From Sphingopyxis sp. 113P3 (GTDB taxonomy: Bacteria > Pseudomonadota > Alphaproteobacteria > Sphingomonadales > Sphingomonadaceae): a stretch of DNA of 64,000 bases. A program made the position numbers and the translations under genes. Positions 3,268 through 58,721 of this stretch are shown here, one piece after another (positions within the stretch are counted from its first letter, which is position 1; every line of letters begins with the position of its first letter). Where the stretch lies: the NCBI RefSeq assembly GCF_001278035.1, contig NZ_CP009453.1:124001-188000 (forward strand). The letters are read 5' to 3'. A model generated the notes under the pieces. The model had not been told where the DNA came from. It ran no database searches and was given only the letters and a program-made list of their open reading frames with translations.

Positions 3268-3725
3268 TCGAACACGCTGAAGGCGAGCAGCTTTTCGCGC
3301 ACATCGCGATCCGCCCCGGCCGGGATCAGCGCCTCGATCGCGGCGCGGCGGTCCAGCGGGCTGGCGTCGAGATCGAGCCCGAGCATGGCGGTGTCGGGGA
3401 ATGTCCGCTCCGTCGCAGGTTGATCAAGCACGACATCGAGCGCGCGGTGACGCGGATCGCGGTTGACCGTGGCAAACATCTGGCCAACCGCCTCCGGGCT
3501 GCCTTCGAGCACCTGCATGTAGCTATTGCCGTTGCCCAGCAGCAGGCCGGTGAGGCCCTTGCGCCGATTGCCCGCCTGCACTTCGTGAGCGAGCGCAAGC
3601 GCGGTGTCGGCCTGCGCGTTTTCCTGCGCGCCGGCGGTGCTGAGATAGATCAGCACGCGCAGCGGTGCCTCGGACAGCGTGCAGACATCGGCGGTGCCGG
3701 CCATGACGGGATCGTTGTCCTCCAT
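3264..3725 (-). CDS. BLUF-domain blue-light photoreceptor
   Basis: Protein of 153 residues consisting of a single BLUF domain (sensor of blue light using FAD). Visible hallmarks are LIYLS with the redox-active Tyr27, NRRKGLTGLLL with the flavin-contacting Asn53, and YMQVLEG with the key Gln71. The later DPRH motif is also typical. The region that usually reads F.DWSMG is FPDTAMLG, so the semi-conserved Trp is absent. No output domain is fused. The gene lies 20 bp after katE and overlaps the next gene by four bases, so the light sensor is cotranscribed with a catalase. ATG at 3725 is used; the internal Met8 is an alternative start. Confidence 0.88.
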   Translation of the reverse strand: MEDNDPVMAGTADVCTLSEAPLRVLIYLSTAGAQENAQADTALALAHEVQAGNRRKGLTGLLLGNGNSYMQVLEGSPEAVGQMFATVNRDPRHRALDVVLDQPATERTFPDTAMLGLDLDASPLDRRAAIEALIPAGADRDVREKLLAFSVFD

Positions 3726-3745: not shown

Positions 3746-6010
3746 TCAGGCCAGGTCGCGGACTTTGGGTTCGCGATCCCAGTGGCGCTTGGTGCCGACC
3801 TTGAGGAAGTCCTCCGGCTTGGGCACGCCCGCGTCAGGCTCGATATTCGCCTTGGGCAGGATATGCTCGCGCGTGCCGCCACAGGCGCCGATGGTCTTGC
3901 AGTGATACCAGGCGTCGGCAAACCAGGCGACCGCGCCCACATCCTTGGCCAGTTCCTGCGCCTGGTCGGGCATCAGGATGGCGACCACCGCATCGAACAC
4001 CACCGAAGGCGTGCCCGCGAGCTGGCCATCGGCCTTGAGTGTGCCGCCCTTGACCTTGATCTCGCCCACCTTGGGCGCGACCAGCTTAACCGTACCGCCG
4101 TCCTTTTCGACGCCCGCCTTGATCTCGTCGATCATCGCCTTGTCCGAACCCTCGGCGTAGAGAATGCCCACGCAGCGGCCCTCGAACACGGGCTTTTCCT
4201 GCTTCTGGATCGACAGTGCATCGGACAGCGCCATATCGATCGGTTCCTTCGCGGCCTTGGCCTTTTCCGGGAGGTCCATCGCCAGACCGGCGGCCACGCG
4301 CTTGGCCAGATCCTCGTCGATATTGCGAAGACGGCTCATCACCCGGTTGCGGACATGCTCCAGCGTCACCTTCGACAGCTCGAACACGATAGCCGAGCAG
4401 ATGTGCGCCTGTTCGTTATCGGTCTGCGAACGATAGAACAGCCGTGCCTGGCTGTAGTGGTCGGCGAAGGTTTCCGCACGGATGCGCAGCTTCTCGCCGC
4501 CATCGTTGCGTTCGTCATTGGCGGCAAAGCTGGTGAAGCCGGTTTCCGGGCATTCGCGCGGGCCGCCGTCCTCGCCCGCTTCGGCAAGGCTGTTGGGCTC
4601 GTAATTGGCGCGGCCCGTGGGCACCAGCGTCTGCATCATCCCGTCGCGCTGGAAATTGTGGAACGGGCACTTGGGCGCGTTGATCGGGATCTGGTGGAAA
4701 TTGGTCGTGCCCAGCCGCGATTTCTGCGTGTCGAGATAGCTGAACAGCCGCCCTTGCAGCAGCGGATCGTTCGAGAAATCGATCCCCGGCACCACATTGG
4801 TGGGCAGGAAGGCGACCTGCTCGGTCTCGGCAAAGAAATTGTCGACATTACGGTTCAGCGTCATGCGCCCGATGATGTCGACCGGGATTTCCTCTTCGGG
4901 AATCAGCTTGGTCGCATCGAGCACGTCATAGGGCTGCTTGGCGGCCCACGCCTCGTCGAACACCTGGATGCCCAGGTCCCATGCCGGATAGTGCCCGCCA
5001 TCGATCGCTTCGTGGAGATCGCGGCGGTGGAAATCGGGGTCGGCCCCGGCCAGCTTCACTGCCTCATCCCAAGTGGTGGAGGCAAGGCCCAGCACCGGCT
5101 TCCAGTGGAACTTGACGAAGCTGCCCTTGCCCTCGGCATTGACGAGCCGGAAGGTGTGGACGCCGAACCCTTCCATGTTGCGCAGCGTGCGCGGGATCGC
5201 GCGGTCGGACATCGCCCACATGATCATGTGCATGGACTCGGGCATCAGGCTGATGAAATCCCAGAACGTGTCATGCGCGCTGGCCGCTTGCGGATAGCCG
5301 CGATCGGCCTCCATCTTCACCGAATGGACGAGGTCGGGGAACTTGATCGCGTCCTGGATGAAGAACACCGGGATGTTGTTGCCGACCAGGTCCCAGTTGC
5401 CGTCTTCGGTGTAGAGCTTGACCGCAAAGCCGCGCACGTCGCGCGGGGTGTCGACCGATCCAGCGCCGCCCGCGACGGTGGAGAAACGGGTGAACACGGG
5501 GCAGCTGTTGCCGGCCTTGGAGAATAGCTTGGCCTTGGTCAGTTCGGGGATCGCCTTGGTGACTTCGAACACGCCGTGCGCGCCGGAACCGCGGGCGTGG
5601 ACGATACGCTCGGGGATACGTTCGTGATCGAAGTGAAAGATCTTCTCGCGCAGAACGAAGTCTTCCAGCAGTGTCGGCCCGCGCGCGCCGGCTTTGAGGC
5701 TGTTCTGGTTGTCCGCAATGCGATGGCCGTGGTTGTCGGTGAGATGCGCCACCGTATCGCTATGATCGCCGCTATCGGGCACCTGCTGATGCACTTCGCC
5801 AGCATTGCCCAGCTCGGTGTCGAAATCGGTCTCGCCCAGACCCGGGTTGTGGTGGTGCAGCGAATTGTCGCCCGCCGGGCCGCGTGGCCGCTCCCCCTTG
5901 TCGATCGCGCGGCCACCGAAAGGACCGGTTTTGTCCACGTTGGGAACTGGCTTCACGATGATCGGGTCGGGGTTGATGTCATGGGCGGTCGTCTGAACTT
6001 TTTTAGCCAT
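3746..6010 (-). CDS. katE: Large-subunit catalase (HPII type)
   Basis: Protein of 754 residues that decomposes hydrogen peroxide to water and oxygen in the cytoplasm. The length and C-terminal extension mark the large-subunit clade 2 catalases. The distal heme-side signature [15 protein letters not shown] carries the catalytic His138. The proximal heme signature [14 protein letters not shown] carries the axial Tyr425. Residues from about 610 to the end form the glutamine-amidotransferase-like (DJ-1/PfpI-like) C-terminal domain. It is the first gene of a katE-BLUF-FAD protein operon on the minus strand. The AGAGGA just upstream of ATG 6010 is a plausible ribosome binding site. Confidence 0.93.
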
Positions 6011-46833: not shown

Positions 46834-46939
46834 TGTGGACGCTATGGAGGGCAGCCGCTGCGCCCCACCCATATCCGTCCACATACTATGTCTCTTTACT
46901 CCTCGCTGTCCATAGGCCCAGATGACCTTTTGTGGACAG
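46834..46939. promoter_or_regulatory. Candidate res site between tnpR and tnpA
   Basis: Repeated half-sites occur: TGTGGAC (46834-46840) and GTCCACA (46877-46883), then CTGTCCA (46906-46912) and TGGACAG (46933-46939) as an inverted pair spanning 34 bp. Paired dyads of this kind between divergent tnpR and tnpA are typical of Tn3 res subsites and also cover the two promoters. Confidence 0.55.
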
Positions 46940-46947
46940 GAAACGGC

Positions 46948-49917
46948 ATGACGAAGCGCAAGCATCAACTCCTGACCGAGAGCGAACGCGATCAGATACT
47001 CGCCATCCCGACCGATCGCGACCATTTGGCCCGGCTCTATACCTTCGAGCCTTCCGATATCGAGATCATCGGCGCGCGACGGGAGCGACGGAACCAGTTG
47101 GGCGTGGCGCTGCAACTCGCGCTCCTGCGGCACCCGGGCATCACGCTTGCGCAGTTGATACAGGACAGGGGAGCAATACCCCATGATCTCGCCGCTTTCG
47201 TCGCGGAGCAACTTGGTCTGCACGTAACCGAGCTGGCCAACTATGCGGCGCGGGATCAGACAATGACGGATCATGCCCGTGAGCTGGCGGCGCGTTTGGG
47301 GCTTCGGGGGCCAACCCGGGCCGATATTCCCTTCATGGTCGAGGCGGCCGCGAGAACGGCATGGGCGACCGACAAGGGGATGACGATTGCGATGGGCGTG
47401 GTCACCGCCCTGCGCGAGGCCCGGATTTTGCTGCCGTCCATCTCCACCATCGAACGCGCCAGCAGCGCGGGACGTGCCCGCGCGCGCAAGCAGGCCGCCC
47501 ACGCCCTGATCGCCGATCTCAGCGCCGAACAGGTCCAGGCCCTCGATCAGCTCTTCGACGCCGCCGGCGGCATGAGCCATCTCGCCTTGCTTAAGACCAT
47601 CCCCGTCGCGGCCAAGCCCGATCACGTCCGCCAGATCCTCGACCGTCTGAGGCAGGTGCGGAAGATCGGCATTTCCCCCGACGTCGCGGGCCGCATCCAC
47701 GCGGACCGATTTCGGCAATATGTCAGGGAAGGCCGTGCGTCGCCTGCCTATATGATCGAGCGCTATATTCCCTCCCGGCGACGCGCCACGCTCGTTGCCT
47801 TCCTGCTCGATCTTGAAGAACGGCTGACGGACAGCGCCCTGGAGATGGCGGACAAGCTGATCGGCGGCATCTTCACCCGCGCGAAGAACGCCCAGGCGCG
47901 CAGCTATGCCGCCACGTCGAAGAACGTGGCCCGGCTGATGCTGATCTTCCGCAGGACGATCGACGCGCTCACCGATGCAGTCGATACTGGCGAAGATCCT
48001 ATGGAGGTCCTGGATGCCTCAGTAGGATGGCACACCCTCCTGAAGGCCAGACCGGAAGTGGCGACGATCGCGGAAACCGCCAATCTTGATCCGCTGAGGG
48101 TCGCGGCCGACCGCTATGCGACGTTGCGCAAGTTCGCCCCTGATCTGCTTGAAGCGCTGCAGTTCAGGGCCGGAAAGGGCAGCGCGAAAACGATTGCCGC
48201 TATCGAGATGCTGCGCGACCTCAATAGGTCGGGCAAGCGCGATCTGCCTGCCGACGCTCCGATGCCCTTCCGCAAGGAATGGCAGAAAATCGTCATGGGC
48301 GATGACGGCAAGATCAATCGGCGGCTCTGGGAAATCGCGACTATCGCGCATCTGCGCAACAAGCTGCGCTCCGGTGATGTCTGGGTGGAACGATCGACGG
48401 GATACCGCCAGTTCGACAGCTACCTGCTAAGCGAACCGAAGGCCAAGCCGATCGTGTCGGCTCTTGGTCTGCCACCCACAGCCGGCGAATGGCTCGAACA
48501 GCGGGGCCGCGAACTGGACTGGCGGCTGAAGAAATTCGCCCGGAGCCTGAAGCGCGACGCTCTGGAGGGTGTGCGATACCGCGACGGCCGCCTCCAGATA
48601 TCCCCCGTTCGCACGATCGCAACGCCCGACGCCGAAGCCCTGGCCGACCGGCTCGATGCGATGATGCCACGCATCCGTATCACCGAACTGCTACATGAGG
48701 TGGCGCAGGAAACTGGCTTTCTTTCGGCGTTCACCAACCTGCGCACCGGCGAGCTATGTCCCAATGAAAATGCGCTGCTCGCCACGATCCTCGCCGACGC
48801 CACCAATCTCGGCCTGTCGCGCATGGCCGCCGCGAGCCAGGGCGTCACGCGCGATCAACTCCTATGGACCCATGACGCCTATATCCGCGACGAGAGCTAC
48901 CGCGCGGCGCTCGCCGTCCTCATCAACGCGCACCACCGCCTGCCATTCTCGCGGGTATGGGGCGACGGCACAACGTCCAGTTCCGATGGTCAGTTCTTCA
49001 GGGGCGCGAAGCGCGGCGCATCGGGCGGCGACATCAACGCCCGCTATGGCGTCGATCATGGCTTCAGCTTCTACACCCATGTTTCCGATCAGCGCGGGCC
49101 CTACCACGTCAATGTGATCTCGGCCGCCACGCATGAAGCGCCCTATGTCCTCGACGGCCTCATCAGCCATGGCACCGATCTCAGGATCGTCGAGCATTAC
49201 ACCGACACCGGCGGAGCGACCGATCATGTCTTCGCCCTGTGCGCGATGCTGGGATTTCGCTTCTGCCCGCGCCTGCGCGACTTTCCGGACAGGCGGCTTG
49301 CGCCGATCGCGCCGGTTTCGGCCTATCCGTCCATCGCCCCGTTGTTGGGCAAGCGTATCCGCACCGACATCATCAATGAACAATGGGACGACGTGCTGCG
49401 CCTCGTGGGGTCGATCAAGGCTGGCCACGTCGCGCCGTCGGTCATGCTGCGAAAGCTCGCCGCCTACGAACGGCAGAACCAGCTCGACGTCGCACTACAG
49501 GAGATCGGCAAGATCGAACGGACCCTGTTCATGCTGGACTGGCTTGAAAATCCCGATCTGCGCCGGCGATGCCATGCCGGCCTTAACAACAGCGAGCAGC
49601 GCCATGCCCTGACGCAAGCGATCTACACCTTCCGCCAGGGCCGCATCATCGACCGCAGCCATGAAGCTCAACAATATCGGGCATCAGGCCTCAACCTAGT
49701 CATCGCGGCGATCGTCTATTGGAACACGATCTACATGGCCGACGCCGCCCAGCATCTGCGATCGGCAGCGGCCCCGGTCCCCGATGATCTGCTTGTCCAT
49801 ACGTCGCCGGTTGGCTGGGAGCATATTGCCTTTTCCGGCGATTTCCTCTGGGATCGAGCCGCCGCTTCCGCTGGCCGCAAGGCCCTCAATCTTCCGCCGG
49901 ACAGCCGCGCCGCCTAA
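46948..49917 (+). CDS. tnpA: Tn3-family transposase
   Basis: Protein of 989 residues, full length for the family. N-terminal DUF4158-type domain (MTKRKHQLLTESERDQILAI, RRERRNQLGVALQLALLRHPG), C-terminal DDE core with Asp in WGDGTTSSSDGQFF, Asp in HYTDTGGATDHVFA and Glu near ...KIERTLFMLDWL..., ending with the conserved SGLNLVIAAIVYWNTIYM block. An in-frame ATG at 46888 would extend it through the res region, so 46948 (GACAGGAAACGGCATG) is used. It appears intact. Confidence 0.93.
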   Translation: MTKRKHQLLTESERDQILAIPTDRDHLARLYTFEPSDIEIIGARRERRNQLGVALQLALLRHPGITLAQLIQDRGAIPHDLAAFVAEQLGLHVTELANYAARDQTMTDHARELAARLGLRGPTRADIPFMVEAAARTAWATDKGMTIAMGVVTALREARILLPSISTIERASSAGRARARKQAAHALIADLSAEQVQALDQLFDAAGGMSHLALLKTIPVAAKPDHVRQILDRLRQVRKIGISPDVAGRIHADRFRQYVREGRASPAYMIERYIPSRRRATLVAFLLDLEERLTDSALEMADKLIGGIFTRAKNAQARSYAATSKNVARLMLIFRRTIDALTDAVDTGEDPMEVLDASVGWHTLLKARPEVATIAETANLDPLRVAADRYATLRKFAPDLLEALQFRAGKGSAKTIAAIEMLRDLNRSGKRDLPADAPMPFRKEWQKIVMGDDGKINRRLWEIATIAHLRNKLRSGDVWVERSTGYRQFDSYLLSEPKAKPIVSALGLPPTAGEWLEQRGRELDWRLKKFARSLKRDALEGVRYRDGRLQISPVRTIATPDAEALADRLDAMMPRIRITELLHEVAQETGFLSAFTNLRTGELCPNENALLATILADATNLGLSRMAAASQGVTRDQLLWTHDAYIRDESYRAALAVLINAHHRLPFSRVWGDGTTSSSDGQFFRGAKRGASGGDINARYGVDHGFSFYTHVSDQRGPYHVNVISAATHEAPYVLDGLISHGTDLRIVEHYTDTGGATDHVFALCAMLGFRFCPRLRDFPDRRLAPIAPVSAYPSIAPLLGKRIRTDIINEQWDDVLRLVGSIKAGHVAPSVMLRKLAAYERQNQLDVALQEIGKIERTLFMLDWLENPDLRRRCHAGLNNSEQRHALTQAIYTFRQGRIIDRSHEAQQYRASGLNLVIAAIVYWNTIYMADAAQHLRSAAAPVPDDLLVHTSPVGWEHIAFSGDFLWDRAAASAGRKALNLPPDSRAA

Positions 49918-50929: not shown

Positions 50930-51307
50930 TTACTGCGGGTTCTTGCCCATTTTGCGAAGCATGGCGTTCAACGTCGCGATCTCACGGTTCTGGCTGTCGA
51001 TCGTCTTCTGCGCCTCACGACGGATTTCATTCCGGGTACTGCGAAGTGCCGTCTGCGACATCGTGATCGCGCCGCGGTGATGCTCGATCATCTGACGAAT
51101 CCACGTCTCGCCGGCGTCGGCACCCTTTGCCGCCATCATCCGCTCGTGCATCTTCATCATGTCGGGGCCGTAGGGATTGGCCGCGCTCGGCTGCATCATG
51201 CCTGCATGGTTCATTCCCTGATGATCCATCCCCTGATGCCCGGTCTGCTGCGCCAATGCCGGGGCGGCGGCGAACAGGGCGGCGGTCATGATCGCGATTG
51301 TCTTCAT
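50930..51307 (-). CDS. DUF305 protein, secreted
   Basis: Protein of 125 residues. Signal peptide (AIMTAALFAAAPALA), a His/Met-rich stretch (QGMDHQGMNHAGMM), then the DUF305 helical core with MMAAKGADAGETWIRQMIEHHRGAITMSQ. The EHH..A..M pattern is the typical metal-site region (ferritin-like). It probably binds copper in the periplasm. A candidate ECF promoter lies 40 bp upstream (51347-51370). Confidence 0.85.
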   Translation of the reverse strand: MKTIAIMTAALFAAAPALAQQTGHQGMDHQGMNHAGMMQPSAANPYGPDMMKMHERMMAAKGADAGETWIRQMIEHHRGAITMSQTALRSTRNEIRREAQKTIDSQNREIATLNAMLRKMGKNPQ

Positions 51308-51346: not shown

Positions 51347-51370
51347 TACGTGCACCAGCACGCCACCCCT
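51347..51370 (-). promoter_or_regulatory. Candidate ECF sigma promoter upstream of the DUF305 gene
   Basis: Minus strand: AGGGGTG, 12 bases, ACGTA. It has the same spacing as the sites at 56002, 57329 and 57366. The -10-like end is 39 bases from the ATG at 51307. Confidence 0.5.
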
Positions 51371-51385
51371 CAACCAACGGTAAAT

Positions 51386-51988
51386 CTATCGGACCGGCTG
51401 CAAGGTGTTGATGCCGGTGCTCTGATCCGTCTCGGGGGGCGGGGGCGGCACCTGCCGGTCGCGATAGGAAGGCAGGTCCGGCGCGTTCGGGGGCGTGGGG
51501 TTCGCTTCCAGTCGGGCGATCATCCGCTTCATCTGCGTAATTTCGCGAACCTGGGCGTCGATGATGCCGTCAGCGAGCTTACGCACTTCCGGGTCTTTGA
51601 TGTGTGCCCGTTCGCTCGTCATGATCGCGATCGAGTGGTGCGGGATCATCGCCTTCATGTAGGCAACGTCACCGACTGTGTCCTGGCTGCGGACAAGCCA
51701 CAGCGCGCCGGTGAACACGATGACGGCGCCTGCCACGATGCCGAGATTGGCGCGGCGGTTCGGGTACATGCCCCACATGAAACCGAGCATGATGATCGCC
51801 ATCACGGCACCCATGACGATCGCCATCCACGTCCGGGTCTGACTGTACTCGACGTGGCTCAGGGCATAGGTGTTCAGGTACATCAACCCGAACATCACGA
51901 CGGTCGATGTCGCTATCATGGCGGCGAACCGCCCGTAGCTCATGCCCATCCCGCCACCCTGGCCGGATCGGTGCTGGTCGTGGTCCAT
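51386..51988 (-). CDS. DUF305 protein with membrane segments
   Basis: Protein of 200 residues. Three hydrophobic helices (AAMIATSTVVMFGLMYLN, AIVMGAVMAIIMLGFMWGMY, IVAGAVIVFTGALWLV) are followed by the DUF305 core (MKAMIPHHSIAIMTSERA) and a Pro-rich tail. The core should face the periplasm or outside. ATG 51988 is used; a longer frame upstream only shadows the PepSY gene. Association with copper genes suggests metal handling. Confidence 0.85.
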   Translation of the reverse strand: MDHDQHRSGQGGGMGMSYGRFAAMIATSTVVMFGLMYLNTYALSHVEYSQTRTWMAIVMGAVMAIIMLGFMWGMYPNRRANLGIVAGAVIVFTGALWLVRSQDTVGDVAYMKAMIPHHSIAIMTSERAHIKDPEVRKLADGIIDAQVREITQMKRMIARLEANPTPPNAPDLPSYRDRQVPPPPPETDQSTGINTLQPVR

Positions 51989-52020
51989 CGCTCGTTCTCC
52001 TTTGGCACCCCCCAAAGAAA

Positions 52021-52749
52021 CTACGCGGCGGTTCGGGCTGTCCCTTGCACTTTTCTCCGCCTGCGTCGCGGCCAGCGCATGAACAGGAGGATCGCACCCG
52101 CGACGCCGAACACGAGGCCACCCGCCGCAAAGGCCATCAGCCACGGCGTGTTGAAGCGTTCGTGCTCGGTCCAGTCCATGATATGGAGGCCCCAGAAGAA
52201 GTCGTAGAGCCGCCACGTTCCGGTACGCACCGAGGTCAGCCGGCCGGTTTCCGCCGACACGTAGATGCGCGTCGCATCTTTGTCAGGGAACGATGCGCGC
52301 CATGCGGGAAGGCTGCCGCGATATTCGGTGCTCGGGCGCTCCACCCGCTCCATCGTCGGAACTGCGGGTCCGCCTCGATAGGCCCTGCCGGCGATGGCCG
52401 CCGCGGCCCTCATGTCGATCGGTGGGAGCGGCGCAGCCGTCCGGGCGTCGAGCAACCGGATTTTGCCATCGGCAAGCTGCGCCTCAACGACGGGTCGGCC
52501 GAGCAGCATCCGGTGTTGAAGCTGACGGACAGGCACGCCGGCATTCGCGAGCAGGGCAGGAACGGGTGCAAAGGTTTGGTCGATCGACAGCGCCGGCTCG
52601 GCATTGCGATCGATCCGGTGATCGCCGTGAACCGTGTCGATCGGCAGCAGGCTCATAATGAGTCCGCTGGTGAACCATACGATCACCTGCGCCCCGATCA
52701 GGAGAGCAAGCCAGCGATGGACCTTGCTCGCCCCGATGTGGAGGCGCAA
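52021..52749 (-). CDS. PepSY-domain membrane protein
   Basis: Protein of 242 residues with a first helix (HRWLALLIGAQVIVWFTSGLIM), a periplasmic PepSY-like domain with RIYVSAETGRLTSVRTG, then WRLYDFFWGLHIMDWTEH and a second helix (WLMAFAAGGLVFGVAGAILLFM). PepSY-associated membrane proteins often accompany metal uptake or resistance genes, sometimes as reductases. The most upstream start I can support is TTG at 52749, eight bases after the copB stop. The ribosome binding site is weak, so the start is uncertain. Confidence 0.75.
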   Translation of the reverse strand: MRLHIGASKVHRWLALLIGAQVIVWFTSGLIMSLLPIDTVHGDHRIDRNAEPALSIDQTFAPVPALLANAGVPVRQLQHRMLLGRPVVEAQLADGKIRLLDARTAAPLPPIDMRAAAAIAGRAYRGGPAVPTMERVERPSTEYRGSLPAWRASFPDKDATRIYVSAETGRLTSVRTGTWRLYDFFWGLHIMDWTEHERFNTPWLMAFAAGGLVFGVAGAILLFMRWPRRRRRKVQGTARTAA

Positions 52750-52757
52750 CCGCGGGC

Positions 52758-53969
52758 TCAGAACCAGGTCCTCACGCCAGCGACGAAGCTGAACCCGCCG
52801 GTGTCACCGCCGCGTGCCCGCGTGAAGCGCGCGGTGTCGCCGAACTGCCGTTCCCACGACACGCCGATATACGGCGCCAGCTCGCGCCGGCCTTCATACC
52901 GAAGCCTCAGGCCTGCCTCCAGATCGGTAAGCCCCGACCCGGTGCCTGTCTCCGGCACGTCCTGCGCAGAGAAGTTGGCTTCGACCCTTGGCTGAAGCGT
53001 GAAATAATTGGTGATGCGCTGATCGTAATAGCCCTCAGCACGACCCAGCACCTCGCCCTTGTTCGACAGGAACAGCGCACCTTCTACCTCGAACCAGTAA
53101 GGTGCCAGCCCCTCGATACCCACGGTCGCATAGGTCCGGGAAGGGTTGGGTTTGATGTCGTAGCGGACGCCCGCCTGGAGGTTCCAATAGGGGTCGAGTG
53201 CATGGCTGTAGAGCGCCTGAACCTCGGCGCTGTCGAGCGACTTGCCGAAACTGCCTTCGCCCTCCGACTTCAGCCACAGGCGATCAATGTCGCCTCCGAC
53301 CCACGCCTCGCCATCCCAACGATACCCGTCGCTACCCTTGCGAGCCTGGTACTCGGCCAGATTGAAGAGCACCTGATAGTAGGTCATCCCGCCATGCTCG
53401 CGACGCAGATCGTCCTCGCGGGAGGTCGCCATCGCCTTCGCACCCCAGAAACGATCGGCAAGATGATCGCCGGAGGGAGCGGGTGCGGGCTTATTGCCGG
53501 GGGGCAGGTCGGTCCCGACTTTAGCGCCGCCCTGATCGCCGTTCATCGCCATGCCCGGCATCGCGTTCATGTCGTGGCCGGCGTGTTGGTCCTGCGCCGT
53601 TCCTGCCGGGGCACCCATGCCGGGCATGGCCGACATATCGTGGCCCGCGTGCGGGTTCGAGGCGGGGGCCGACTGCTGGCCGCCCATGTCCATCCCCTGC
53701 ATCCCGCTCATATCGTGACCGGCGTGCGGGTCAGTCGCCGGAGCTTGGGCCTGCGCACGTCGGGACGCCGTCTTTCTGGCAGGTGCCTTGCGCTTGGATG
53801 CCGGCTTCGCGGCGGCTTTCCGCGCGGGTTTCGGGGCGGCCTTGGCGGCAGGCTTGGCCGGCATGGTCATGCCCGGCATGTCGTGCATGGAATGGTCCAT
53901 GCTCTGTGCGAAGGCAGGAACAGCGATGATCGCTGATGCCAAACCGGCAAGGAGGATCGACCGGCTCAT
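52758..53969 (-). CDS. copB: Copper resistance outer-membrane protein CopB
   Basis: Protein of 403 residues. Signal peptide (AGLASAIIAVPAFA), then an Ala/Lys/Pro-rich segment and four or so Met/His copper-binding repeats of the type HAGHDMSGM.GM. The C-terminal about 220 residues are the CopB beta-barrel (FWGAKAMATSRED, LWLKSEGEG, YDQRITNYFTLQPRVE) ending in a terminal Phe. It is thought to sequester or export copper at the outer membrane. Its ATG overlaps the copA stop (ATGA). Confidence 0.92.
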   Translation of the reverse strand: MSRSILLAGLASAIIAVPAFAQSMDHSMHDMPGMTMPAKPAAKAAPKPARKAAAKPASKRKAPARKTASRRAQAQAPATDPHAGHDMSGMQGMDMGGQQSAPASNPHAGHDMSAMPGMGAPAGTAQDQHAGHDMNAMPGMAMNGDQGGAKVGTDLPPGNKPAPAPSGDHLADRFWGAKAMATSREDDLRREHGGMTYYQVLFNLAEYQARKGSDGYRWDGEAWVGGDIDRLWLKSEGEGSFGKSLDSAEVQALYSHALDPYWNLQAGVRYDIKPNPSRTYATVGIEGLAPYWFEVEGALFLSNKGEVLGRAEGYYDQRITNYFTLQPRVEANFSAQDVPETGTGSGLTDLEAGLRLRYEGRRELAPYIGVSWERQFGDTARFTRARGGDTGGFSFVAGVRTWF

Positions 53970-55957
53970 GCTGCGGCCTCCCCGGCCTTGCGGACCTGGA
54001 CGACACGCATCATGCCCGCGTGCATGTGGTAGAGCATGTGGCAGTGGAACGCCCAGTCGCCTTCCTCTCCCGTCACGTCCCAACTGACAGTTCCGCCCGG
54101 TTGGACCAGCACAGTATGCTTTCGGGGCGCATAGGCGCCTTTCCCCGTCACCAGCTCGAAGAAGTGACCGTGAATGTGGATCGGGTGGCCCATCATCGTG
54201 TCGTTGATGAGGGTGACGCGCACCCGCTCGCCATGCAGCAGCGTGATCGGATCGGGGTTCTCTGACAGCTTTTCGCCGTCGAAGCCCCACATGTAGCGTT
54301 CCATGTTGCCGGTGAGGTGAAGCTTGATCTCGCGCTCTGGTGCCCGCGTATCGGGGTTGCGGTCGAGCGCCATCAGATCGCGATAGGTCAGCACGCGGTG
54401 GCCGACATTCTCCAGCCCCTGACCCGGATCGCCGGTGCGGTCCACCGGCATAGCCGAGATGGTCTGAACGCCCGGCCCCTTCTTCACCTCCGGTGCCTTC
54501 GAGAAGTCGCGCATGTTCATGTTGCCCATGTCCATGCCACCCATGTCCATGCCGGCCATCGACTGATCGCCTGCCATGCCGGGCATTGCGCCCGAGCCAT
54601 GATCCATCCCGGCCATCGTGCCGCTTTGACCCTGCGGCATCGCCATTCCGGCCATCCCTCCGGCAGCGGCAGCGGCCGTGCCGTGGTTCATCTGGGAATG
54701 ATTCATCCCCTGCATCGAGCCGGCACCGGCACCATGGTTCATCGCGCTATGGTCCATGCCCGCCATCGAACCGGCCTGCGCGCCCGCCGCACCGTTCCCC
54801 ATGCCTTGCATGGCGCCGTGATCCATGGTGCCCATGTCGTGGCCGCCCATGCCCATGTCCTTCATGGTCGCGAGCGGACGCTTGCGGAGGGGAGGAACCT
54901 CGGCAGCCATGCCCTCACGCGGCGCGAGCGTGGCCCGGGCTTGGCCAGAGCGGTCAACACTTTCGCCGACGAGCGTGTACGCGCGCATGTCGGGAGGCGT
55001 AACGATCGCATCATAGGTTTCGGCGGGACCGAACTGGAACTCATCGATCTGGACCGGCCGCACGTTCAGGCCGTCCGCTGCGACGATCGTCATCGGCAGG
55101 CCCGGAATGCGGACGTTGAAGGTCGTCATGGACGATGCGTTGATGAAGCGGAGCCGGACCCGCTCGCCGGGCTTGAACAGCGCGGTCCAGTTGTCGCGCG
55201 GCCCATGACCGTTGACCAGATAGGTGTAGGTCGATCCGGTCACGTCGGCGACGTCAGCTGGGTCCATCCGCATCTTGCCCCACATCAACCGCTCTTTGAG
55301 CGGCTGATCCTTGCCCGCGAGCAAGCCGGCCAAGGTCTGGCGCTGGCGGTTGAAATAGCCCGACTCCTTCTTGAGCCGGTCGAACAGGTAATGCGAATGC
55401 TGGAAGCTGTGATCGGATAGCACGATGACGTGCTCGCGATCGAACTGCACCGGGTCCGGGTCCTTGGGATCGATCAGGATCGGCCCGTAGTGACCGTCCT
55501 GTTCCTGAAGCCCCGAATGGCTGTGATACCAGTAAGTGCCGCTCTGGATGATCGGAAATTCGTAGGTGAAGGTCGAGCGCGCTGGAATGCCGGGAAAGCT
55601 GATGCCAGGAACACCGTCCATCTGAAACGGCACCAGCAGGCCGTGCCAGTGGATCGAGGTTTCTTCGTCCAGGTCGTTGACGACATGAAGGCGCACATTC
55701 TGGCCTTCGCGCAGGCGGATCAGCGGTGCCGGCACGGTGCCGTTGATGCCAATCGCGTGGCTTTCCCGCCCGTCGATCATCATCTTCTGATGCGCGACCC
55801 TCAGCGTAATGTCCTCGCCCGAGACGGTCGGCAACGGTTTGGCGATACCAGCGGAAACGGATTGCGCCCACGCCGGCATATAGGCCGACAGGGCAAGGCC
55901 GCCTCCCGCCATGGTGGCACCGCGCAGCACTTGGCGGCGATCGAGAACGCGCGACAT
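53966..55957 (-). CDS. copA: Periplasmic multicopper oxidase CopA
   Basis: Protein of 663 residues. Tat signal (DRRQVLRGATMAGGGLALS). Cupredoxin copper sites: IHWHGLLVP and YWYHSHSG near the N-terminus, HPIHIHGHFFEL and WAFHCHMLYHMHAGMM near the C-terminus. Between them is a long Met/His-rich insert (residues about 355-490, repeated GMDHSAMNHG-like units). It oxidises Cu(I) and stores copper in the periplasm. It is preceded by a candidate ECF promoter that overlaps the end of the sigma gene and is translationally coupled to copB. Confidence 0.95.
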   Translation of the reverse strand: MSRVLDRRQVLRGATMAGGGLALSAYMPAWAQSVSAGIAKPLPTVSGEDITLRVAHQKMMIDGRESHAIGINGTVPAPLIRLREGQNVRLHVVNDLDEETSIHWHGLLVPFQMDGVPGISFPGIPARSTFTYEFPIIQSGTYWYHSHSGLQEQDGHYGPILIDPKDPDPVQFDREHVIVLSDHSFQHSHYLFDRLKKESGYFNRQRQTLAGLLAGKDQPLKERLMWGKMRMDPADVADVTGSTYTYLVNGHGPRDNWTALFKPGERVRLRFINASSMTTFNVRIPGLPMTIVAADGLNVRPVQIDEFQFGPAETYDAIVTPPDMRAYTLVGESVDRSGQARATLAPREGMAAEVPPLRKRPLATMKDMGMGGHDMGTMDHGAMQGMGNGAAGAQAGSMAGMDHSAMNHGAGAGSMQGMNHSQMNHGTAAAAAGGMAGMAMPQGQSGTMAGMDHGSGAMPGMAGDQSMAGMDMGGMDMGNMNMRDFSKAPEVKKGPGVQTISAMPVDRTGDPGQGLENVGHRVLTYRDLMALDRNPDTRAPEREIKLHLTGNMERYMWGFDGEKLSENPDPITLLHGERVRVTLINDTMMGHPIHIHGHFFELVTGKGAYAPRKHTVLVQPGGTVSWDVTGEEGDWAFHCHMLYHMHAGMMRVVQVRKAGEAAA

Positions 55958-56001
55958 CGAAGCTCCTCAAGGGTCGGGCCGCGATCGGCCCTCACCCCTT
56001 C

Positions 56002-56025
56002 TACGCGTCTCGCCCGATCATCCCT
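56002..56025 (-). promoter_or_regulatory. Candidate ECF sigma promoter for copA
   Basis: Minus strand: AGGGATG, 12 bases, GCGTA. The -10-like end is 45 bases from the copA ATG, and the -35-like end overlaps the sigma-factor stop codon. Confidence 0.6.
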
Positions 56026-56593
56026 TAGCCGCGTTCAACTTTTCCATGAGCTGCGCCCGCGCGCGATAAAGGCGGGTTTCGACCGCCTTCTGGCTGATAC
56101 CCAACACCTCGGCCGTCTCCGCCTGGCTCAAGCCCTCGATCGTCCGCAGCACCAGCGGCTCCTTCAGATTGACCGGCAACGTCGAGATAGCGCGCGTCAC
56201 CCGATCAAGCTCCTGGCGATCGGCTGCACTGTCATCGATCGGCACGGCGTTGTCGGGAAGGGTGTCAGCCTGATCCTCCGCCGCGAAGCCGAAGGACAGA
56301 AAACGGCGAACGGCGCGCTTCCTCGCCCAATCCCGGCATTTGTTGATCGCGATCGTCGACAGCCATGCCTTCATCGCGCGCTGCGTGTCGTAGCGCGGCA
56401 ACGCCTGATGCGCGGCAACAAAGGTTTCCTGAACCAGATCAAGCGCTTCATCGGTTTCGCCTACAGAGGCACGCGCGAGCCGAAAAACCGGCTGACGGTA
56501 ACGGCGCATGATTTCCGCAAAGGCCGCCTGACGGCCGGCGATACTGAGCGTCGCCAGTTCGCCGTCAGACAATGCGGTCCAGTCGATGCTCAC
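56018..56593 (-). CDS. ECF RNA polymerase sigma factor (CnrH-like)
   Basis: Protein of 191 residues. Sigma region 2 (EIMRRYRQPVFRLARA, EALDLVQETFVAAHQAL) and region 4 with a helix-turn-helix (LSQAETAEVLGISQKAVETRLYRARAQL). GTG start at 56593 overlaps the sensor stop (GTGA). It is placed directly after a metal sensor and a small anti-sigma protein and before copA, so it likely directs copper-responsive transcription, probably at the AGGGRTG-N12-RCGTA sites. Confidence 0.9.
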   Translation of the reverse strand: MSIDWTALSDGELATLSIAGRQAAFAEIMRRYRQPVFRLARASVGETDEALDLVQETFVAAHQALPRYDTQRAMKAWLSTIAINKCRDWARKRAVRRFLSFGFAAEDQADTLPDNAVPIDDSAADRQELDRVTRAISTLPVNLKEPLVLRTIEGLSQAETAEVLGISQKAVETRLYRARAQLMEKLNAAKG

Positions 56594-57030
56594 CCCTGAC
56601 CGTCGGTGAGTGCCTTCACCACCGCGGCATCAAATTGGGAGGTCTGATCGGGTCGCAGCAACTGCCGCATGGCGAAGATATGCGCGAGCGTCGCCTTTTG
56701 CAGCTCGCCCATCGCCGCATGGCTCTGGTCCACCGCGGCTGCGACCTTGAGGCCATTGCCATGTTCGGTTTGGATCGCCTCGGCGAGCCGGGTGTTGGCA
56801 GCGCGCATTTCGAGCTCGAGCGCACGCCGCTGCATCGCGAAGCGATCTTCCAGCACCTTCAACCGTGCCTGCTGGCCGTCGTCGAGCGTCAGCTTGTGGT
56901 GCAATACGTCATGCAGCGCGGCACCTGGCTGCTTGGGCTGCGGCAACAGCGCCCGCCCGACGAACACGCCTCCGATCGCGGCCAGAAAGGCGAGCACGAC
57001 ACCGAGAACGATGCGCGTCGTCGAGGTCAT
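56590..57030 (-). CDS. Periplasmic heavy-metal sensor (CnrX-like)
   Basis: Protein of 146 residues. N-terminal membrane anchor (VLGVVLAFLAAIGGVFVG), then a helical hairpin periplasmic domain. The metal-ligand set of CnrX is visible: His40 and His44 (HDVLH), Glu61 (VLEDRF), His117 and Met121 (HIFAM), with the same spacings. CnrX senses Ni/Co; the surrounding genes here are for copper. It overlaps the anti-sigma gene before it and the sigma gene after it by four bases each. Confidence 0.85.
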   Translation of the reverse strand: MTSTTRIVLGVVLAFLAAIGGVFVGRALLPQPKQPGAALHDVLHHKLTLDDGQQARLKVLEDRFAMQRRALELEMRAANTRLAEAIQTEHGNGLKVAAAVDQSHAAMGELQKATLAHIFAMRQLLRPDQTSQFDAAVVKALTDGQG

Positions 57031-57299
57031 TGCTCACCCAGGAGCAAGGAGGAAGGCGCAAGCGGCGACGCTCCGCCAAGCGGGGCCAGGGAAACGGTCG
57101 GGCGGGCAGCGACGGGCAGCTCGGCTCCGACGATGCCGATCGCAAGCGCCGCTGCCGTCACTACGCCAAGACCGATGCCGGCCTGCCGCACGACGGGCCG
57201 CGAGCCGATCCGTGCAAGTACCCGCGTCTCGATGCCGTCCAGCGCGGCAGGGGCGGGTGCGCCCGCCAGCCTCGCCAATGCTCTGTCCAGTTCGTCCAT
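57027..57299 (-). CDS. Small membrane anti-sigma protein (CnrY-like)
   Basis: Protein of 90 residues. A short cytoplasmic N-terminus (MDELDRALARLAG) that would bind the sigma factor, one membrane helix (IGLGVVTAAALAIGIVGAEL) and a periplasmic tail. The identification rests on size, topology and position ahead of the sensor and sigma genes. ATG 57299 has GGAG eight bases upstream; an in-frame GTG at 57308 is an alternative. First gene of the copper operon. Confidence 0.75.
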   Translation of the reverse strand: MDELDRALARLAGAPAPAALDGIETRVLARIGSRPVVRQAGIGLGVVTAAALAIGIVGAELPVAARPTVSLAPLGGASPLAPSSLLLGEQ

Positions 57300-57328
57300 G
57301 CTTTCCACTCCACCCCACTAGCATTTCA

Positions 57329-57352
57329 TACGCAGGATTGCCCGACATCCCT
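57329..57352 (-). promoter_or_regulatory. Candidate ECF sigma promoter for the regulatory operon
   Basis: Minus strand: AGGGATG, 12 bases, GCGTA, followed by TGA. The -10-like end is 30 bases from the anti-sigma ATG, exactly the distance seen for copC on the other strand. Confidence 0.65.
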
Positions 57353-57365
57353 CATCGGGCGGCTA

Positions 57366-57389
57366 AGGGGTGCGCGACCGGGGCGCGTA
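57366..57389 (+). promoter_or_regulatory. Candidate ECF sigma promoter for copC
   Basis: Plus strand: AGGGGTG, 12 bases, GCGTA, followed by GAT. The -10-like end is 30 bases from the copC ATG. It is divergent from, and 14 bp away from, the site at 57329-57352. Confidence 0.65.
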
Positions 57390-57418: not shown

Positions 57419-57790
57419 ATGCGTAGCATCTTCCTCCCTACCGCCCTCGCCCTTCTCGGCATCGCCAGCGCAGCGCAGGCTCATCCGAAACTCGTGACAG
57501 CCTCGCCGACCGCGAATGCGACCGTCGACAAGCCTGCCCGTATCGAGCTGCGTTTCAGCGAAAAGCTGATGCCGAAGTTCTCCGGCGCCGATCTCATGAT
57601 GACCGGACATGGCGGGGCAACGCACGCGCCGATGAAGATCACGACGACGGCAGCCGTCGCCGGTGACGGCAGCACGCTTGTCCTTACGCCCAAGGCGCCG
57701 CTCGCTCCGGGCCGCTACACCGTTGCATGGCATGTCGTGTCGAGCGACACCCACCGCGTCGCCGGCAACTACACCTTCGCGGTCAAGTGA
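57419..57790 (+). CDS. copC: Periplasmic copper-binding protein CopC
   Basis: Protein of 123 residues. Signal peptide ends ASAAQA, leaving His as residue 1 of the mature protein (HPKLVTASP), the first Cu(II) ligand of CopC. The cupredoxin-like fold ends VSSDTHRVAGNYTFAVK with the second His. The Met-containing KLMPKFSGADLMM could bind Cu(I). Two bases.. from its stop begins copD, and a candidate ECF promoter lies 30 bp upstream. Confidence 0.93.
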   Translation: MRSIFLPTALALLGIASAAQAHPKLVTASPTANATVDKPARIELRFSEKLMPKFSGADLMMTGHGGATHAPMKITTTAAVAGDGSTLVLTPKAPLAPGRYTVAWHVVSSDTHRVAGNYTFAVK

Positions 57791-57791
57791 C

Positions 57792-58721
57792 GTGGAAACC
57801 GACTGGCCGCTGATCGCTGTACGCTTCGCGCTCTTTCTGGCGCTGGGCGGGCTGTTCGGCCTGTCGGCATTCGGCCTCTACGGCCTCAAGGGACGCGAGC
57901 GCGCCAGCGCGCTCGCGTTGCGCCTCTGGCTCGTCGGTCTCGGTTTGCTGGGCCTTCTGCTCTCCGCCATCGCACTCGCGCTACTCGCTGCGGCGATGGC
58001 GGGCACACCGCCCTGGCCAATCGATCGCGAGGCGATCGGAATGCTGCTTTCCGGGTCGACCATAGGCACGGCATGGGAAGCACGCATGACCGCGCTGGTC
58101 GTGGCGTCGGTCGCCGCCTTGGCGGCGGCCGGACGTGCGCCTCTCCTCGGCGTCGTGGTGATCGCCAGCGCTGTGGCGCTGGCGACACTCGCCTGGACCG
58201 GGCACGGTGCGATGGATGAGGGCGCAAAAGGCTGGGCTCACCTCCTTGCCGATATTCTCCACCTGCTCGCAGCCGGTGCTTGGGTCGGGGCGCTGTTTGG
58301 CCTTGTCCTGCTTGTGGCTCGCCCTACCCGCCGGGCCGACGCGGCTCATCTGACGCTTACGCATCGTGTACTGCACGGGTTCGGCCTGGTCGGTACGATC
58401 GTGGTCGGCACCATTATCGTTACCGGCCTCGTCAATACATGGCTGCTAGTCGGTGTAGGCAACCTTCCAAAGCTCGCCACATCCCTTTACGGCCAGCTCC
58501 TGCTCGCCAAGCTCGTCTTGTTCGGCGCGATGCTGGTGCTGGCATCGCTCAATCGCTTCCGGCTGACGCCCGCATTGGAGCAAGCGCTGCCGGGTAGCGA
58601 TCAACGCGGCGCACTCAGCGCTTTACGGCGCAGCCTCGGGATCGAGGCGGTCAGTGCCATTACGATCCTCGCGCTCGTCGCATGGCTGGGAACGCTCGAA
58701 CCACCCATGTCGGCGATGTGA
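57792..58721 (+). CDS. copD: Inner-membrane copper protein CopD
   Basis: Protein of 309 residues with about eight membrane helices, the CopD/PcoD family. Conserved elements are WTGHGAMDEGAKGWAHLLADILHLLAAGAWVGAL with several His residues for copper or heme, and GQLLLAKLVLFGAMLVLASLNRFRL. It is thought to pass copper from CopC across the inner membrane. GTG start at 57792, one base after the copC stop. Confidence 0.9.
   Translation: METDWPLIAVRFALFLALGGLFGLSAFGLYGLKGRERASALALRLWLVGLGLLGLLLSAIALALLAAAMAGTPPWPIDREAIGMLLSGSTIGTAWEARMTALVVASVAALAAAGRAPLLGVVVIASAVALATLAWTGHGAMDEGAKGWAHLLADILHLLAAGAWVGALFGLVLLVARPTRRADAAHLTLTHRVLHGFGLVGTIVVGTIIVTGLVNTWLLVGVGNLPKLATSLYGQLLLAKLVLFGAMLVLASLNRFRLTPALEQALPGSDQRGALSALRRSLGIEAVSAITILALVAWLGTLEPPMSAM

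Follow-up and report, generated by a model that had tools for sequence, protein, structure and literature searches.

Introduction

CnrYXH of Cupriavidus metallidurans, encoded on plasmid pMOL28 and responsive to nickel and cobalt, and the related Ncc system are the closest known systems to the one considered here: an extracytoplasmic function (ECF) sigma factor and its partner genes in a copper cluster of Sphingopyxis sp. 113P3, together with a two-block motif, AGGGRTG-N12-RCGTA, that recurs upstream of the cluster's genes. The cluster lies in a 64,000-nt stretch (the window) on the 243-kb contig of a two-contig, 4.66-Mb genome. In the Cnr system, binding of metal to CnrX, which answers nickel and cobalt, is reported to weaken the hold between CnrY and CnrH (PMC7689651). 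Transcription is reported to start 23-25 bases upstream of the cnrY and cnrC genes (PMC9045368), which by our own count falls 9-10 bases after the CGTA box. One pMOL28 start, 53286, fits the CnrH-dependent cnrYp promoter as described in PMC9045368 and is labelled RpoD in PMC11647585.

Several other ECF sigma factors have been linked to copper. CorE of Myxococcus xanthus is described as a copper-dependent ECF sigma factor with a Cys-rich C-terminal extension for which no anti-sigma factor was found (PMC3107203, PMC10141476). SigF-NrsF of Caulobacter crescentus is an alphaproteobacterial example, in which the ECF sigma factor is reported to be induced by copper (PMC8224329, PMC3511200); it differs from the window system in having NrsF as its anti-sigma factor and, as described in these reports, a regulon without a cop cluster. 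SigAb of Acinetobacter is reported as copper-responsive and self-controlling, and it differs in its -35 (GTCAAC) and -10 (CGTT) elements and in that metal genes are controlled indirectly (PMC12153292). Among the titles and abstract openings searched, none described a CnrYXH-type copper system in sphingomonads; the motif may have been predicted earlier.

Identically spaced sites in the copper cluster

The preliminary description of the window had placed AGGGRTG-N12-RCGTA at four positions and proposed that the motif is the binding sequence of the ECF sigma factor encoded there, including autoregulation. All four positions and strands were recovered exactly, and they are the sole exact matches within the 64 kb (mean of 0.02 in 100 dinucleotide shuffles). 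Because these same sites were used to define the motif, the count in the window is by itself a biased statistic; the whole genome and the relatives serve as tests outside the sample. The window contains exactly five copies of the core AGGG-N15-RCGTA (0.44 expected), each upstream of a copper-cluster gene; with two mismatches allowed in the full motif, the 15 window matches are no excess over the 12.3 expected. The five sites are as follows, each with its distance to the start codon, measured from the final A of CGTA to the codon's first base.

57329-57352, minus strand: predicted promoter of the anti-sigma, sensor and sigma genes (regulatory operon), AGGGATG-N12-GCGTA, 30 bases before the ATG at 57299
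57366-57389, plus strand: predicted divergent promoter of copC-copD, AGGGGTG-N12-GCGTA, 30 bases before the ATG at 57419
56002-56025, minus strand: predicted promoter of copA(-copB), AGGGATG-N12-GCGTA, 45 bases before the ATG at 55957
51347-51370, minus strand: predicted promoter of the DUF305 gene 51307-50930, AGGGGTG-N12-ACGTA, 40 bases before the ATG at 51307
52022-52045, minus strand: the weaker, fifth match, upstream of the second DUF305 gene, AGGGACA-N12-GCGTA, 34 bases before the ATG at 51988

For the four original sites, the measured distances of 30, 30, 45 and 40 bases agree with the earlier statement that the -10-like ends lie 30-45 bases from the start codons, and at exactly 30 for the divergent pair. 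The copA site overlaps the 3' end of the sigma gene, and the fifth site overlaps the end of the PepSY gene. The spacers and flanking sequences differ among the sites. By analogy with the CnrH promoters, transcription of the regulatory operon is predicted to start at about 57319-57320, 9-10 bases past its site.

The regulatory genes resemble CnrYXH

Three adjoining genes on the minus strand make up the regulatory operon.

56018-56593, minus strand: ECF sigma factor, CnrH-like, 191 aa (Pfam Sigma70_r2 at 29-94, r4_2 at 130-182)
56590-57030, minus strand: periplasmic metal sensor, CnrX-like, 146 aa (Pfam Metal_resist)
57027-57299, minus strand: putative small membrane anti-sigma factor in the CnrY position, 90 aa (by position, size and a hydrophobic stretch found by reading)

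The closest solved structure to the sigma factor is CnrH (4cxf, E 9.5e-28), and the closest to the sensor are NccX and CnrX (E about 1e-19). As in other ECF sigma factors, only regions 2 and 4 are present. Like CorE, which is tied to a copper oxidase and a copper ATPase, the window protein is an ECF sigma factor associated with copper genes; unlike CorE, it is a 191-aa protein without an extension, and is accompanied by a putative anti-sigma factor and a periplasmic sensor. A CorE-type sigma factor was rejected, as region 4 extends to residue 182 of the 191, with a single cysteine in the protein and no Cys-rich extension. The anti-sigma candidate shares 26% aligned identity with CnrY. It gave no match at E 0.01 to the CnrY/NccY model NF033790, on which CnrY itself scores 139 bits; it lies outside this family model and may yet work like CnrY.

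The window and cnrYXH have the gene order anti-sigma, sensor, sigma in common, the window anti-sigma being assigned by position and size. As in Cnr, promoters (predicted ones in the window) precede the regulatory operon and the effector gene that comes first after the sigma gene. The YRAGGG and CGTA boxes are also common to the window sites and the CnrH promoters, with CGTA 33-34 bases before cnrY and cnrC and 30-45 bases before the window start codons. The two systems differ in spacing, cnrYp and cnrCp of pMOL28 reading AGGG-N16-CCGTA and the window sites being one base shorter at N15, and in the -10 box, which is RCGTA in the window and CCGTAT at the CnrH promoters. An alignment of the pMOL28 promoters on GGG with equal spacing was rejected, since one Cupriavidus site (AGGGT...) permits only the longer spacer. 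The effectors also differ: copA, copB, copC, copD and DUF305 genes in the window versus the CnrCBA efflux pump in Cnr, with copA, and no cnrCBA, behind the window sigma gene. Two N16 sites each were found in a second Cupriavidus plasmid (L162) and in a CnrX-type locus (L138); the nickel-type locus L156 deviates, with no AGGG-N16 match and one N15 match. N16 also occurs at some copper-type loci, so spacer length does not follow the metal.

Genome-wide distribution of the motif

The exact motif occurs six times in the whole genome, four times in the window and twice in one chromosomal region, and the backward control gave none. Among 68 distinct exact sites from relatives, the positions that had not been searched also proved to be conserved, with T/C and G/A 5' of AGGG and C/T before RCGTA, giving a refined core of [TC][GA]AGGG...[CT]RCGTA. 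The preliminary description had called for a scan of the rest of the genome. Scanned as YRAGGG-N14-YRCGTA, the refined motif gave 15 sites versus 7 for the backward pattern, and 12 of the 15 fall in two copper regions: five in the window cluster and seven in a chromosomal copper region (4017994-4042345). The remaining three precede MFS-like and methyltransferase-like genes and a transposase-like frame, by reading of the translations, and are taken as chance.

A paralogous copper cluster built in the same way (DUF305, CopB, CopA, sigma, sensor and divergent CopC-CopD; L007 6008-12442) lies in the chromosomal region and also has a small gene in the anti-sigma position. The sites of this region precede the anti-sigma-like gene, copC and copA; another lies 119 bases before a heavy-metal P-type ATPase gene and another 70 bases before a cytochrome c gene. 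Sites also stand before two TonB-receptor genes, at about 182 bases (L128, 4042320) and, by reading, at 128 bases (L122, 4017994). These are odd for a copper-induced sigma factor, since such receptors import.

Conservation and spacing in relatives

A sensor-based search of relatives, of which the best 80 of 295 loci were kept, yielded 176 sites of the form AGGGRTG-Nk-RCGTA at k = 12 in 74 of the 80 loci, and none at k = 4-11 or 13-23. In the backward control, matches fell at k = 9 (one) and k = 19 (14); this pile of 14 indicates that shared descent alone can accumulate matches at one spacing. The locus sets described here and below partly overlap and share ancestry.

Most of the sites (141 of 176) precede the gene in the CnrY position (Y), copC, copA or DUF305 genes. 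Where the site precedes Y, 29 bases separate it from the start in 62 of 65 cases. When an exact or relaxed (NGGG-N15-NCGWA) site was sought within 100 bases of each start, the first genes were found to carry one almost throughout (Y, 77/78; copC, 75/75; copA, 70/72; DUF305a, 66/69), with DUF305b at 25/41. No site was found within this distance of the internal genes (copB, 0/76; copD, 0/74; X, 0/79; H, 0/78), and the PepSY gene had one upstream in 1 of 69.

Of the 35 remaining sites, those in three loci, L062, L064 and L079, were read. In L079, from a Sphingomonas clade, sites at 3583 and 4547 stand before the genes for a DUF4396 protein and for a small protein of 110 aa rich in Cys and His; the latter, which we take to have a copper-storage-like look, has no Pfam match. 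One site in L064 precedes an acyltransferase-like gene, by reading. Exact sites also lie antisense to DUF305b (L062, 13562-13585) and to PepSY (L064, 13150-13173), and could possibly give rise to antisense transcripts.

The spacing was then compared in three further sets. In 29 further loci of the window's family, retrieved via the chromosomal sigma factor, the core occurred 68 times at N15, in every locus, and no other spacing between 8 and 24 gave more than one match. The 23 further loci from phylum and class searches had 45 core sites at N15 in 18 loci and nine at N16 in five, one of which, L150, belongs to the window's family. A second family of the same class supplied 35 loci (11 already found in the broader search, 24 new), of which 26 held 60 N15 sites in all; spacings other than N15 and N16 gave 0-3. 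An invariant spacing within the window's family was rejected because of L150, and the spacing is best called dominant. The AGGGRTG form of the preliminary description stood in part: the four sites match it exactly, but RTG varies in paralogous and family sites and was dropped as an essential part of the motif.

The motif accompanies the sigma and sensor genes

Genomes of the family in which the chromosomal sigma factor had no match at E 1e-30 numbered 88, and 80 of these were searched with copA. Matches were found in 56, and 30 loci were retrieved. Six of the 30 adjoin a more distant sigma factor and sensor, and in five of these six AGGG-N15-RCGTA lies within 300 bases upstream of copA; the sixth (L188) has AGGG-N15-CCGTA within its stretch. 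The RCGTA form was found in none of the 24 copA loci without a sigma or sensor gene in the retrieved stretch. Given this split of 5/6 versus 0/24, the motif tracks the sigma and sensor genes and not copA.

Sensor residues and the metal signal

The metal ligands of CnrX are H42, H46, E63 and H119, with M123. In a three-way alignment of the window sensor, its chromosomal copy and CnrX, H40, H44, E61, H117 and M121 are invariant. Met123 is reported as a CnrX ligand (PMC7689651). Across 137 aligned sensor rows (134 loci and three references, some sequences being identical), all five ligand positions are kept in 134.

The window sensor carries H104xxM107 and H90, unlike CnrX. At positions 104 and 107, 132 of the 137 rows are H/M, one is H/L and four are E/A; the E/A rows are CnrX (entered twice), L138 and L156, and in all three of these systems cnrC lies directly behind the sigma gene. 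The Cupriavidus plasmid L162 is also E/A, with TolC/RND genes behind sigma. In the other family, 34 of the 35 loci are H/M and one (L156) is E/A. Sensors with H104xxM107 usually also carry H90. These patterns make 104 and 107 candidate metal-specificity positions; ancestry may explain the split, since only four distinct E/A loci were seen, of which two belong to Cupriavidus and one has 84% identity to CnrX. Several H/M loci have no cop gene in the short stretch retrieved. On a Sphingobium yanoikuyae plasmid (L164), the core motif (4605-4628) and a sigma-sensor set lie beside a TonB receptor, and no cop gene is annotated in the stretch.

Other genes of the cluster and its mobility

The remaining genes of the cluster are listed below.

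57419-57790, plus strand: copC (Pfam CopC)
57792-58721, plus strand: copD (Pfam CopD)
53966-55957, minus strand: copA, multicopper oxidase (TIGR01480 copper_res_A, above cut-off)
52758-53969, minus strand: copB (Pfam CopB)
52021-52749, minus strand: PepSY membrane protein (Pfam PepSY_TM)
51386-51988, minus strand: DUF305 membrane protein, the second DUF305 gene (Pfam DUF305, scanned as 51386-51991)
50930-51307, minus strand: DUF305 secreted protein (Pfam DUF305)

A Tn3-family transposase (Pfam DDE_Tnp_Tn3) is encoded close to the copper cluster, at 46888-49917. On plasmid p4 of Sphingobium xenophagum (L165), near-identical regulators and copCD are present; downstream of the sigma gene no cop gene is annotated, and further on there is a Tn3 transposase. 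There, the copper cluster seems to be mobile and to have been cut short. A Sphingobium cloacae plasmid (L161) carries two sigma-sensor sets about 3.5 kb apart, with transposition genes between them.

Discussion

The motif is very probably the -35/-10 pair of promoters read by the cluster's own ECF sigma factor, which would make the cluster an autoregulated, CnrYXH-type and probably copper-responsive regulon. The earlier proposal of ECF sigma promoters with autoregulation is thus favoured at the level of sequence by the dominant spacing, the fixed distance before the regulatory operon, the co-occurrence with sigma and sensor genes and the likeness to CnrH promoters. The system is best explained as a copper-linked variant of the CnrYXH kind. 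We infer the following course of events. As in CnrYXH, the small anti-sigma factor would tether the sigma factor to the membrane and would itself be coupled to the sensor in the periplasm. A periplasmic metal, most likely copper, would bind the sensor, and the anti-sigma factor would let go. RNA polymerase carrying the freed sigma factor would then read the AGGG-N15-RCGTA core, activating copA(B), the DUF305 genes, the divergently transcribed copCD and the operon that encodes the sigma factor itself. The chromosomal paralogue shares the core motif, and cross-talk between the two systems would be probable.

Several points weigh against this reading. No expression, transcription-start or deletion data for Sphingopyxis sp. 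113P3 were found. The anti-sigma candidate matches no Pfam or NCBIfam model, and for three of the 15 matches in the genome no link to copper is visible. The spacing is not universal: L150, of the window's own family, has three N16 sites and no N15 site, and in the other family 11 N16 sites occur in seven of the 35 loci and three loci have neither an N15 nor an N16 site. One AGGG-N15-GCGTA lies inside cnrB on pMOL28. The site counts across relatives are not independent events, given shared descent and the backward cluster of 14. Finally, the sensor keeps the ligands of a nickel/cobalt sensor, and copper as the signal therefore rests on the neighbouring genes.

The last point leads to the possibility that the system senses nickel or cobalt and the copper genes are passengers, as retention of all five ligand positions of CnrX, which answers nickel and cobalt (PMC7689651), might suggest. 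We consider this unlikely, given that the neighbours are mostly cop genes with sites in front of them, and that nickel-type systems have cnrC behind sigma and differ at sensor positions 104 and 107. A question of a different kind is which sigma factor reads the sites. The chromosomal cluster has the same core motif and the two sigma factors are 47% identical, so that the sites might be read mainly by the chromosomal sigma factor, or equally by both as a shared regulon. The full AGGGRTG form is commoner at the plasmid (window) sites, with 4/5 versus 2/7 in the chromosomal copper region, and yet the plasmid and chromosomal motifs are not clearly separable; a shared regulon is accordingly a serious possibility, with a probability well below even, and may be partly true.

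Reading the motif as an operator for a repressor or activator of the CopR or CueR type, and not as a sigma promoter, would fit the fact that copper genes are often under CopRS or CueR control, and cueR lies close to two homologous plasmid clusters. This is nevertheless very improbable for an asymmetric, two-block element that is directed toward genes at a fixed distance with one dominant spacing, is absent from the 24 copA copies without nearby sigma or sensor genes and resembles the CnrH promoters. That the motif was chosen after the four sites had been seen leaves room for coincidence, or for a copied repeat; the differing spacers and flanks and the out-of-sample conservation in relatives reduce the probability of either to a negligible level.

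A broader proposal, to which we give somewhat less than an even chance, is that the sigma-promoter system described here belongs to a copper branch of the CnrYXH family that is widespread and seen in two families of the window's class. In this branch, a nickel/cobalt sensor would have been re-tuned to copper via an H104xxM107 pair, usually with H90, added to an unchanged five-ligand site, and would drive a dedicated copper regulon through an AGGG-RCGTA promoter whose spacer is mostly one base shorter than that of CnrH promoters. As part of the same tentative proposal, the regulon would comprise the cop genes and DUF305 and, in some genomes, DUF4396, P-type ATPase, cytochrome c and TonB-receptor genes.

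Collectively, the analysis offers a precise promoter and regulon for copper resistance, open to direct testing and recurring in many relatives, on chromosomes and plasmids alike. Given that a few residue positions separate the copper and nickel sensor sets, these positions would allow a direct test of how one fold chooses its metal.

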